Source of the DNA: Thermanaerothrix daxensis
Lineage (GTDB): Bacteria; Chloroflexota; Anaerolineae; Anaerolineales; Anaerolineaceae
Assembly (NCBI RefSeq): GCF_001306145.1
Contig: NZ_LGKO01000002.1
Location: forward strand, 1,240,001 to 1,304,000
Reading direction: 5' to 3'
DNA length: 64,000 bases
Position 1 is the stretch's first letter. Each line of letters opens with the position of its first letter. Of the stretch, positions 14,860-18,281 are shown piece by piece. The notes under the pieces were generated by a model that worked only from the letters and a program-made list of their open reading frames with translations, searched no databases and was not told the origin of the DNA. The position numbers and the translations under genes are program-made.

Positions 14860-16173
14860 CTACATGGCCCGTTCAGGCACCGAAGCGGGTTCCAAAGTAA
14901 GCAGACCCCGGTTGTCATCGTAAGCGAGGAGCTCGGCGTAACGGCCCCAATCTATTAGAATATCTAGCTGACGTTCAGCCTCGTCAGGGGGGAACTCGAG
15001 TTCCAGGGCGGTACGCACCACTTCCCAATCCAGCGTATTTTCTTCAGCGCGCCTTAGCAAATTCAACAGCCACCGCATTAGAGGCAATCGGCGGATGCGT
15101 GTGGCAAAAATTTCCTTGCGCGCCAAAATACTGGCCTGGGCAAAAGTTTCGCCCAGTGGGGTCAGTTGAATATCACCCTTTTCAATGGTTGCGAAACCAA
15201 GCAACTCAGCGGTTTCAGTTAGGCGAAGGATGTGATCCGAATCCACGCCAAGATCTTCAGGAAGATGGAAAATGTCGGCTCGATAATTGGGTTGTTCGTT
15301 CAGATATTCCAGGAAACCGGCCAGGTCGTTAATGGTAATCTGGGGTAGGGCGCGGGTTCTGCCTGGTTCCCCAGGGGCTGAGCCCAGTTCGATAGGCTCT
15401 GGTTGGGTCTGGCCCGCCAGAAGCGCATAGACTTGATCCACCAGATCCTGGAATTCAGGAGACTTGCGCTGCCGTGGATGGAACAGGGCAATTGGCATTT
15501 CAGCTACGATACGACCGGGGTCTTTATCCATAATGATCAAACGGTCTGCCATTAGGATGGCCTCTTCAATGTTATGGGTCACCATTAAAATGGCGCGGGT
15601 GGGGATTTTGCCACTAAGCCAGAGCTCTAGAAGTTCACCGCGTAGACTCTCGGCACTGAGCACGTCTAGGGCAGAGAAAGGTTCATCCAGGCAAAGCAAT
15701 TCCGGTTCTACGGCCATAGCTCGAGCAAAGCCAACTTTTTGCCGCATCCCTCCCGATAGTTCACGCGGATAAGCGGTTTCAAATCCGTCCAGGCCCACCC
15801 GATCAATGAGATCCAGTGCGCGAGGTTTGCGTTCTTCAGCAGGCACACCGCGAGCGCGCAGAGCCAGTTCGACATTCTCCTGGACCGTTAGCCAGGGGAA
15901 GAGGGCAAAAGTCTGAAAGACGATGGTCGCATATGGGTTCACGCCTTCCAGAGGAATGCCCCGATAAAGCACCCGTCCCTCGGAGGGTCTCCGGAGGCCC
16001 GTGATGATGCGTAGGAGAGTGCTTTTGCCGCAACCCGAGGGCCCCAACAGAGCAACAAATTCGCCTTCGTTGATGGTTAGATTGACATCCTGGACCGCCA
16101 CAAATTGGCGTCGGCCGCTTGTGTAGAGTTGTTGAACATGGATGAGTTGGAGCAAAGGTTTTTGGTCGGTCAT
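14860..16173 (-). CDS. ABC transporter ATPase of the nitrate/sulfonate type with AAA-associated C-terminal domain
   Basis: 437 residues. The first 240 form an ABC ATPase: Walker A GPSGCGKST, signature LSGGMRQK, Walker B LLCLDEPFSALD, H-loop VTHN. Residues about 285-430 match the AAA-associated C-terminal domain found on a subset of NitT/TauT-like ATPases; it is helical and of unclear role. The gene follows the double permease by six bases on the same strand and is evidently its motor. No periplasmic or lipoprotein binding component is encoded nearby, so the transported substrate, probably a small anion or metal complex, cannot be named. Confidence 0.9.
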   Translation of the reverse strand: MTDQKPLLQLIHVQQLYTSGRRQFVAVQDVNLTINEGEFVALLGPSGCGKSTLLRIITGLRRPSEGRVLYRGIPLEGVNPYATIVFQTFALFPWLTVQENVELALRARGVPAEERKPRALDLIDRVGLDGFETAYPRELSGGMRQKVGFARAMAVEPELLCLDEPFSALDVLSAESLRGELLELWLSGKIPTRAILMVTHNIEEAILMADRLIIMDKDPGRIVAEMPIALFHPRQRKSPEFQDLVDQVYALLAGQTQPEPIELGSAPGEPGRTRALPQITINDLAGFLEYLNEQPNYRADIFHLPEDLGVDSDHILRLTETAELLGFATIEKGDIQLTPLGETFAQASILARKEIFATRIRRLPLMRWLLNLLRRAEENTLDWEVVRTALELEFPPDEAERQLDILIDWGRYAELLAYDDNRGLLTLEPASVPERAM

Positions 16174-16179
16174 GGTCTC

Positions 16180-17901
16180 TTACTCCATACGATATTTTTC
16201 TTCAGCGATGAGGTATAGCCGTCGCCACCACAAGCGGTTAATCAGGACAACGGTGAGCACCATGGACAGAGTGGCGGCCAGGAGTAGGGCATAATCTCCA
16301 TGGACCGTAGCCTGGGCGATCAGCGCTCCAATACCAACGGTTGAATGAGTCGCTCCACCAAAGGTAACGTATTCGGCAACAATGCTGGCGTTCCATGCTC
16401 CCCCACTGGCGGTAATGGCACCTGTCACCAGATAGGGGAAAATAGCCGGGAGAATGAGAGTGCGCCAGCGTTGCCAAGACGTCAGACGCAACAAGGCTGA
16501 GGTGAATTTTAGATCCTGAGGAATGGCTGAAGCACCAGCAATAATGTTGAAAAGCAGGTACCACTGTGTTCCCATGAGCATCAAGAGAATTGCGGCCAGA
16601 TTGAGTCCACCAGGAAGAGCAAGGAAGAAAAGCAAAATGACCGGGAAAATGGCCGTTGCGGGCACAGACGCGGCGATTTGAACAATGGGTTGAAGCAGCG
16701 TTGCCAGGCGCGGCTGTGTGCCAATTGCAACCCCAACCGGGATCGTCCAAACCAGGGCGATCAGCAATGCGATCAAGACGCGTATGAGAGTTGCGCCGAC
16801 TCCTATTCCAATGGCCAACCATTGATCTACTGGCAGGCTCAATAGCATCTGGCCGGTTCGAAATCCCCCGTAAAGCAGACCCCCGACCAAGAGAATTCCT
16901 AGCAAAATGGTGGGCGTGAATGGCTGAGCTACCTGGCCTTCATGATCACGCATTGGATAGCGGCGTACCATCCACAAATCAATACGCTCCGTGAGGGGGG
17001 AGAGTACGTGATCGTGGAACCAGTTGGTCAGCCGTGCACTGTTAAGCAGGTCAAAAAACCATGAGGTGGGTGGGTTGTCGCTTTCCACCATTTCCAGTTT
17101 GAAGCGGTCCGACCAGGCGAGGAGGGGACGCCAAATGAGTTGGTCCAGCACGACAATGGTCAGAATTAAAGTGATCAATCCCCAGAGGATTGCCTGCAAG
17201 TTGCCCTGGTTGGCTGCTTCTTGGAGGTAGGAGCCCAAACCCGGAAGGCGAAAATCGCGTTCACCAACGGTAAAAATTTCGGCGGCCATCAAAAAGAACC
17301 ATCCACCCGCCCAGCTCATCATACTATTCCAGATCAGGGTGATCATTCCAAAAGGCAATTCCAAAAAACGGAAACGCAGCCAGGTATTGAGTCGAAAGAT
17401 TTTGCTGGCTTCGTTAAGTTCCTTGGGGATGGTGGTCAAGGATTGGTACCAGCCGAAGGTCATGTTCCACACCTGACTGGTAAAGATTAGGACAATCGAA
17501 GCGAGTTCGGCTGCTAACGCTTCGGGTAAAATCGCGCTCAGGCTCAGCAAGACAACAGGGAGAAAGGATAAGATGGGAACGCTTTGCAAAACATCCAGCA
17601 ATGGCATCAGCAGGCGCTCTGCGCGTTTGTTGTAAGCGGCAGCGCGCCCATATAAAAGGGTAAAAAGGAGCGAAAGGGCGTAAGCAGCTGCCATTCGCCC
17701 TACTGAGAGCAGGGTGTACCAGGGAAGAGCGCCTGGTTCTAACGATATGGAAGGTCCCTTGACACTGGGGGGCGCCTTGACTGCGAGGACAACGCCAGCA
17801 TAGAGCAAGACGGCGATCAGAACTAGAACAATGGCATCTCCGAGAGTGAAGAGGCGTTCCTCACGCGGTTTAGGCAGGAGCAGGTCTCGAAGGTTTGCCA
17901 T
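16180..17901 (-). CDS. ABC transporter permease with two fused membrane domains
   Basis: 573 residues and about 12 membrane segments, made of two BPD-type permease halves (about 20-290 and 320-570). Each has the EAA-like loop contacting the ATPase (first half KELNEASKIFRLNTWLRFRFLELP, second half DLKFTSALLRLTSWQRWRTLILP, here quoted as regions, not full motifs). Thus one polypeptide supplies both membrane subunits. It is the promoter-proximal gene of the pair with the ATPase. AGGAGGTGG lies immediately before ATG 17901 and is the 3' arm of a strong hairpin, so translation is probably regulated by the leader. Confidence 0.88.
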   Translation of the reverse strand: MANLRDLLLPKPREERLFTLGDAIVLVLIAVLLYAGVVLAVKAPPSVKGPSISLEPGALPWYTLLSVGRMAAAYALSLLFTLLYGRAAAYNKRAERLLMPLLDVLQSVPILSFLPVVLLSLSAILPEALAAELASIVLIFTSQVWNMTFGWYQSLTTIPKELNEASKIFRLNTWLRFRFLELPFGMITLIWNSMMSWAGGWFFLMAAEIFTVGERDFRLPGLGSYLQEAANQGNLQAILWGLITLILTIVVLDQLIWRPLLAWSDRFKLEMVESDNPPTSWFFDLLNSARLTNWFHDHVLSPLTERIDLWMVRRYPMRDHEGQVAQPFTPTILLGILLVGGLLYGGFRTGQMLLSLPVDQWLAIGIGVGATLIRVLIALLIALVWTIPVGVAIGTQPRLATLLQPIVQIAASVPATAIFPVILLFFLALPGGLNLAAILLMLMGTQWYLLFNIIAGASAIPQDLKFTSALLRLTSWQRWRTLILPAIFPYLVTGAITASGGAWNASIVAEYVTFGGATHSTVGIGALIAQATVHGDYALLLAATLSMVLTVVLINRLWWRRLYLIAEEKYRME

Positions 17902-17902
17902 G

Positions 17903-17987
17903 CCACCTCCTGAAACGTGCGCCCCGCACGGGTTGAAGTGCGGGGCGTGAGGTGGCTAATAGAAAATGACCTCGCCCGGCTTCAACC
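17903..17987 (-). promoter_or_regulatory. Leader RNA with two mutually exclusive folds around the permease ribosome-binding site
   Basis: Reading the minus strand, segment 2 (CCACCTC, then CGCCCCGCAC) pairs with segment 3 (GTGCGGGGCG, then GAGGTGG), forming 7 + 10 bp that bury the AGGAGG site one base before ATG 17901. Segment 1 just upstream (GGTTGAAG, GGGCG, AGGT; plus-strand 17969-17987) is complementary to segment 2 (ACCT, CGCCC, CTTCAACC; plus-strand 17931-17953), giving about 17 bp that would free the ribosome-binding site. This is the architecture of a translational switch. No known riboswitch core was recognised. Confidence 0.6.
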
Positions 17988-18281
17988 GCTTATGTCATGC
18001 GGGAGCAGGGTGCAACTATGATAATCAGAATCTAGACCAACAATCTCGTCCATCTCTGGTTTCTCGAAGACGTTACAAATATAGCCCTAACCCTACCTAC
18101 TGTCAAGAAGTAATTATCGAAACTTTCCCTCCAAGAAACCCACCCTAACTCATGGGGAAGATGATAGAAAAATCTAGAAATCTCTTAAACTATACCCAAA
18201 AAGAGAAGAAATGCGTATAATTGCCCACAATTTAAGAAGTCCCCAATTTAATTCCCTTATAAATTATCTAAAGGAGCGGCA
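17988..18281. other. Divergent intergenic region between ABC permease and lysC
   Basis: About 290 bases beyond the structured leader. On the plus strand TATAAT at 18216-18221 is a plausible -10 for lysC (weak -35), and AAGGAG at 18271-18276 is its ribosome-binding site. No lysine riboswitch or T-box core was recognised. The left part probably holds the promoter and any ligand-binding part of the permease leader. Confidence 0.5.

Follow-up and report, generated by a model that had tools for sequence, protein, structure and literature searches.

An RNA element upstream of a duplicated ABC permease gene in Thermanaerothrix daxensis is most likely a translated leader of the magnesium type, which would also point to the substrate of the transporter, and not an aptamer. 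Judged from sequence comparison, the element probably works as a leader-peptide attenuator of the MgtL/MgtQ kind, in which a ribosome on an acidic leader peptide would govern access to the ribosome-binding site (RBS), low Mg2+ would be the signal, and the transporter would import that ion. The stretch of DNA analyzed, of 64,000 nucleotides, is referred to below as the window; all features lie on its minus strand.

Organization of the leader

The controlled gene (16180 to 17901) encodes a duplicated permease with two BPD_transp_1 stretches by domain match, which we take to be a member of COG4986. The second gene of the unit (14860 to 16173) encodes an ABC ATPase that matches the AAA_assoc_C domain at its C-terminus. 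The Shine-Dalgarno (SD) sequence of the permease gene, AGGAGG (17906 to 17911), lies 4 bases 5' of the start codon (17901). A promoter scan predicts a sigma-70-like promoter, TTGACA-17-TATATT (11/12, 18106 to 18078), with its -35 hexamer at 18101 to 18106 and its -10 hexamer at 18078 to 18083, and a similar layout is seen by eye upstream of relatives. From this position, transcription would be expected to start near 18071. The preliminary description of this region, which left out both the predicted promoter and the leader open reading frame (ORF), had named a transcription start downstream of 17970 as the case against its proposal; because the predicted promoter sits upstream of segment 1, that segment should be present in the RNA.

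Three segments make up the element, and the middle one has two partners, as had been described. Segment 1 (GGTTGAAGCCGGGCGAGGT, 17969 to 17987) is the partner of segment 2 that frees the RBS. Segment 2 (17930 to 17956) consists of an SD-complementary arm (17956 to 17949), the 5' arm of a GC hairpin (17947 to 17938), and the hairpin loop (17937 to 17930), while segment 3 (17902 to 17929) contains the 3' arm of the hairpin (17929 to 17920) and the SD arm (17909 to 17902). Fold 2:3 comprises the 10-bp hairpin (17947-17938/17929-17920) and 8 further bp (17956-17949/17909-17902), burying AGGAGG, and fold 1:2 is a helix of about 18 bp with a duplex energy of -25.7 kcal/mol, in line with the earlier proposal that one fold hides the RBS and the other releases it.

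When the minus strand was folded, as had been suggested, the RNA from 18000 to 17890 was more stable than all 200 of 200 shuffled sequences (z of -3.15). Dinucleotide shuffles reached the energy of 2:3 in 0/2000 cases, that of 1:2 in 211/2000, and both in 0/2000. In the window sequence alone, then, only 2:3 is clearly beyond chance and the 1:2 half is unremarkable, as so many shuffles match its energy, and the case for the 1:2 helix therefore comes from the comparative test described below. The 2:3 fold is also much the more stable of the two (-57.9 versus -42.6 kcal/mol), and equilibrium folding computes an RBS exposure of 0.43 whether or not a ribosome occupies the leader. For these two reasons, any switching would need to be kinetic.

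Several relatives carry a T-rich sequence 3' of the hairpin, and transcription termination may contribute, besides RBS hiding, in some of them; the scan of the window listed no terminator at the GC hairpin. One relative (L051) has an additional large hairpin (GCCTGCCCTCCCGCAGGTT ... AACCTGCGGGAGGG) inserted 3' of the element and ahead of the start codon; the SD-arm pairing is retained.

Relatives and covariation

A permease homologue with an E value of 1e-100 or better is encoded by 92 of the 396 class genomes searched. From 301 named loci, we retrieved the best 80. Trained on 15 sequences, a covariance model locates the element in 16 of these best 80 loci, 13 of which are represented in the model itself; one more locus (L033), missed by the model, was counted as element bearing by eye. 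The permeases of element-bearing loci all begin with an M-(G/A/E)-type N-terminus at the same position. Across the order, 22 of 400 genomes have a model match: by our own count, 19 before the permease, 1 (G051) before a PRC/MgtE_N/CBS gene, 1 (G784) before a chorismate-mutase-like gene, and 1 (G748) unexplained.

A few loci depart from this picture. Three (L036, L153, and L154) encode a permease of the same N-terminal type and lack the element; their upstream DNA resembles the end of another gene. In two anammox bacteria (L042 and L080, from Jettenia and Brocadia), an Anaerolineales-type permease is preceded by a decayed or altered leader, an occurrence for which gene transfer or a binning error is a possible explanation. 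The match in G748 (L188, G748:C295:1698-1781) is weak, with no permease found in its locus, and is perhaps an ordinary terminator.

Covariation was assessed by exchanging helix partners between species in 20,000 permutations. For the whole 1:2 pairing (n = 18), the sequences' own partners gave -22.5 kcal/mol versus -18.0 kcal/mol for permuted ones, a value reached in 0/20,000 permutations. The SD arm pairing was likewise matched in 0/20,000 permutations (n = 15 and n = 18), as were the hairpin arms (n = 15). A control pairing of segment 1 with the SD end (1:3) gave no signal (13,191/20,000; n = 18). The automatic hairpin finder was wrong for L038, L080, L042, and L165, three of which entered the first permutation run. 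For the n = 15 runs, the hairpins of L080 and L042 were placed by hand; for n = 18, L175, L181, L183, L200, L201, and L202 were hand-placed too, and 5/18 hairpins were by hand. L165 and the near-duplicates L003, L038, L084, and L159 were left out of both.

In the first alignment, 80.1% of cells were paired versus 75.0% in shuffles (0/500), and 26 cells were changed on both sides versus 14.3 in shuffles (0/500). Pairs with two-sided change numbered 11/18 (33/500 shuffles), and the number of further pair types was not above that of shuffles (343/500). Lack of covariation in either helix had been set down in advance as evidence against a switch; with 1:2 and the SD arm pairing each covarying as described, the two competing helices are genuine.

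The strongest covarying block joins the hairpin loop to the end of the leader (own partners, -10.6 kcal/mol; permuted, -7.1 kcal/mol; 0/20,000; n = 15). This result, together with loops of 6 to 12 nucleotides (wrong picks aside) that might admit such a structure, would fit a standing pseudoknot between the loop and the upstream strand, formed with the GC hairpin and holding the element OFF until opened by a ribosome. We consider this clearly unlikely, as the window and 14 further sequences show complementarity that continues past the loop into the hairpin's 5' arm, where covariation is again present but weaker: the remainder of segment 1 paired with this arm gave 55/20,000, with all of segment 2 minus the loop 121/20,000, and with the SD-complementary arm alone 1538/20,000 (all n = 15). 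A pure loop pseudoknot had been our first reading and was set back once the complementarity was seen to run into the hairpin arm.

A probable acidic leader peptide

The leader ORF of the window (17982 to 18053; 23 codons, MDEIVGLDSDYHSCTLLPHDISG) starts at ATG 18053, with no clear Shine-Dalgarno sequence, and ends within segment 1 at a TGA codon (17984 to 17982). With leader ORFs assigned by position and some of the 20 upstream regions nearly identical, such an ORF of 15 to 28 codons is found in 19 of the 20, that of the window among them; the exception is L042. Comparison of seven close pairs gives 42 changed codons, 19 of them synonymous, compared with 2/38 and 7/37 in the other frames, a fraction of 0.45 versus 0.26 in simulations (8/5000 as high; by count, 39/5000); two of the pairs share L037, and three (L037/L051, L054/L060, and L034/L089) were cut where their frames part. 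Between L052 and L159, the sole inner insertion is located at the stop codon or beyond it. The substitution pattern indicates that the leader ORF is under coding constraint.

In all rows with a leader except L089, for which the automatic pick fell at nucleotides 27 to 35, the helix strand falls within leader nucleotides 39 to 77, which places it in the final third of the ORF or shortly after its stop codon. Given the usual footprint of a ribosome, one standing at the leader stop codon would cover this strand or the adjoining stretch of segment 1; for L037 and L051, such a ribosome would have the loop-pairing strand just behind it.

Moreover, the leaders are rich in acidic residues. Asp and Glu account for 25% of residues 2 to 13 in 20 leaders versus 4% in 4578 control ORFs (0/20,000 sets), which are mostly noncoding frames, so that true proteins would be expected to differ less from the leaders; Lys and Arg account for 3% versus 15%. 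Two acidic residues at most one residue apart occur in 14/20 leaders (5.5% of controls), leaving 6/20 without, and either DP/PD or an acidic pair is present in 19/20. The permease leaders are not enriched in proline (9% versus 8% in controls). The leader of L054 has zero acidic residues; L165, with none in residues 2 to 13, and L042 are not part of the composition count.

In attenuators of the trp/ilv type, the position of a ribosome on a leader ORF picks one of two helices, and such devices classically have the layout seen here, with the leader ORF running into segment 1. The element might thus sense a scarce charged tRNA (e.g., Asp, His, or Ser), in the manner of trp and his, for a transporter that carries a related nutrient. 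Such attenuators may well exist in the same order, as suggested by a model-positive locus (L185, G784:C109:21787-21906) where the Phe/Tyr codon-rich leader MLNLSVYYRYFYFYGSQNLAAVGGV and a terminator-like hairpin precede a gene that by eye is chorismate-mutase-like; this Anaerolineales locus has the appearance of a classic Phe/Tyr attenuator. Unlike trp/ilv-type leaders, the leader described here lacks a run of one amino acid's codons, and neither such a run nor repeated regulatory codons are common to the leader peptides of homologues; Asp is absent from the leader of L054, and His is absent from those of L033, L046, and L050. The same motif is also found before MgtE_N/CBS genes, as are acidic leaders before mgtE. 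We therefore regard tRNA sensing as very unlikely.

The preliminary description took the competing helices for the mark of a riboswitch or protein-controlled leader while recognizing no known aptamer. The second part agrees with our result that no Rfam family reaches its gathering threshold in the window, where a sensitive scan of 17880 to 18120 gave two far subthreshold matches. A riboswitch, for its part, was not supported: no conserved unpaired core is seen in the alignment, and segment 1 is, in most relatives, the end of the leader ORF or lies shortly beyond it. A riboswitch aptamer was therefore set aside. That the RNA is a true riboswitch or is bound by a protein, with the ORF being accidental, would account for the competing helices and the folding z of -3.15, but it is most improbable in light of the Rfam and alignment results, the coding signal, and the retention of the ORF in relatives. 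Because there is no Rfam match and no conserved unpaired core, and because segment 1 coincides in most relatives with the end of the leader ORF or the region just past it, the translating ribosome is more likely to be the sensor than is a ligand-binding RNA or protein.

Proposed mechanism and comparison with known systems

We propose that a ribosome reaching the leader stop codon would cover segment 1 wholly or partly, so that 2:3 could form and hide the RBS (OFF). At low Mg2+, ribosomes would drop off at the early acidic codons and leave segment 1 free; 1:2 could then form before segment 3 is made, keeping the RBS open (ON). The ON state would be kinetic rather than an equilibrium state.

Two enterobacterial leaders provide the closest parallels. 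For mgtQ and mgtL, three reports describe how acidic or proline codons destabilize translating ribosomes and so decide between alternative folds (PMC8092293, PMC11282234, PMC11552253); for mgtL, this destabilization is described at low Mg2+ (PMC11282234, PMC11552253). First, the mgtQ upstream ORF of Salmonella mgtCBRU is a short ORF with acidic residues that overlaps region 1 of alternative stem-loops, as here, and, as we propose here, one fold hides the RBS of an Mg2+ transporter gene in a case of translational control (PMC8092293). That ORF has 8 codons and lies between two genes, and its RNA has four regions, with 3:4 being the hiding stem (PMC8092293). The element described here differs in having 15 to 28 codons, its own predicted promoter, and three segments, and in belonging to another phylum and transporter class; the likeness is one of layout, and no common origin is claimed.

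Second, mgtL of mgtA resembles the leaders described here in having an early acidic/proline motif (EPDP in mgtL), and, like our proposal, has full translation leading to OFF and ribosome drop-off at low Mg2+ leading to ON, whereas its outcome is Rho-dependent termination instead of the RBS hiding proposed here, with a terminator-like hairpin in several relatives (PMC11282234 and PMC11552253). A third system, the M-box riboswitch (RF00380), stands before permease homologues of Enterococcus gilvus and Tsukamurella and is absent from the window.

Magnesium as the probable signal

The idea in the preliminary description that the signal of the RNA might reveal the substrate gains support; the related leaders before magnesium transporter genes and the gene context suggest magnesium. 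Among 55 plasmid records with a permease homologue, 13 loci, picked for their spread of organisms, were inspected, and an Mg2+ RNA lies upstream of the homologue in 3 of these 13. The homologue of Enterococcus gilvus (32% identity) lies behind an M-box (132.5 bits), as does that of Tsukamurella (42% identity; 108.1 bits), with mgtC in between; that of Escherichia albertii (33% identity) lies 0.6 kb behind an mgtC leader RNA (RF02887, L273:2636-2749; 65.7 bits), with a small ORF between them. No Mg2+ RNA family was found at the 10 other plasmid homologues of the 13 or at 17/17 and 18/18 other loci. A transcriptome study of Bifidobacterium breve places an M-box before a COG4986 permease (PMC5746004), the sole report found to link COG4986 to an Mg2+ RNA.

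Genomic neighborhoods point the same way. The permease lies at most 2.5 kb from MgtE in 4 of 20 genomes present in both match lists (G169, G119, G185, and G252), three of which were reinspected. Within 3 kb, MgtE, MgtE_N, or Nramp flanks 6 of the best 80 of 301 named permease loci, ranging from MgtE, MgtE_N, and Nramp together (L092) to a weak partial match alone (L111). Acidic leaders similar to those of the permease occur before mgtE and MgtE_N/CBS genes. From this context, low Mg2+, or possibly low levels of another divalent cation, would be the signal, and the transporter would import the ion. As CorA is present in 25/25 genomes tested, the ABC transporter would not be the sole route for Mg2+.

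The ion could possibly be Mn2+ or another divalent metal. VIT-family and FetB genes neighbor some homologues and would suit Mn or Fe, and Nramp genes stand beside homologues (L092, L162, and Mycolicibacterium). In addition, an Nramp relative from A. capsulatum with an MgtE-like partner is reported to rescue Mn2+ uptake and to be probably an Mn2+ carrier (PMC4072509). The same attenuator would then respond to Mn2+ (or Fe2+/Co2+), and its DxDH peptide might bind the ion in the exit tunnel. Against this stand the M-box and mgtC leader upstream of homologues and the full MgtE adjoining the permease. Compared by eye with what we take to be the canonical Nramp motif, moreover, the L215 Nramp protein reads ADNDAGG in TM1 and lacks Met in its TM6 motif. 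Changes of Asn to Gly and Met to Ala are reported for an Mg2+-carrying relative (PMC8806188), which, set beside the L215 protein, also counts against Mn2+. All told, a manganese-type signal seems unlikely, and magnesium remains the preferred reading.

The neighborhoods of ten loci, of which nine carry the permease element, show no constant partner besides the permease and ATPase, and no constant binding protein was found in the loci inspected. An anion substrate, as the family label would have it, was considered and rejected; ModA-like and amino-acid-type binding proteins stand beside two relatives and agree with nothing else. In one locus (L193:1888-3593), CrcB and DUF190-CBS genes lie immediately upstream of the element and permease.

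The same leader before other genes

The leader pattern M-D-4x-L-D-x-D-H was searched for in 400 genomes of the order. Of five matches, two precede the duplicated permease and three (G051, G683, and G701) precede PRC-barrel/MgtE_N/CBS genes; a reversed-pattern control in the same 400 genomes gave none among the matches listed. In G701, an Nramp gene directly follows the PRC/MgtE_N/CBS gene, and in G051 and G683, a CorA gene adjoins that locus. The strict pattern found only the known G188 in 204 genomes of the class, where the reversed control gave 3 matches.

Nine MgtE_N loci from 24 chosen genomes were inspected, the three above among them; one more (L206) has a possible acidic leader, MDDQSSNPDLPN..., and two (L207 and L213) have none. 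Of the four mgtE-type loci in this set, three, whose genes were confirmed as MgtE, have acidic leaders of a DPD type (MAQESAVDPDLDPDS..., MPNESTVNADLDPDS..., and MNTDSPDLDSSK...), and L213 is the fourth. Computed for five of these six leaders before MgtE_N/CBS and mgtE genes (all but L212), the 1:2 pairing potential is -13.9 to -20.6 kcal/mol, values that come without a control. Among 29 mgtE loci listed at class level, an acidic candidate occurs in few (L224, L225, and L229, which share one peptide, and L241). MgtE_N is absent from 16/16 genomes bearing the permease element, which is not counted as evidence because other genomes of the order also lack MgtE.

Implications

Our literature search found no description of an acidic leader-peptide attenuator in Anaerolineales. 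Tentatively, and with slightly less than even confidence, we posit that COG4986-like duplicated-permease ABC transporters constitute a further class of Mg2+ importers, for which Mg2+ control has been gained at least three times via unrelated RNAs: the M-box (Bacillota and Actinomycetota), the mgtC-type leader of Escherichia albertii, and the acidic-leader attenuator of Anaerolineales, the last of which would have arisen independently of MgtL/MgtQ and would sense Mg2+ by ribosome destabilization.

If true, this proposal would assign a substrate to a widespread orphan family of ABC transporters. It would also add an ABC-type importer to the known routes for Mg2+; the word "ABC" has 0 occurrences in the main text of review PMC9276622. 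Finally, ribosome destabilization on acidic leaders would be an Mg2+ sensor outside the enterobacteria as well.
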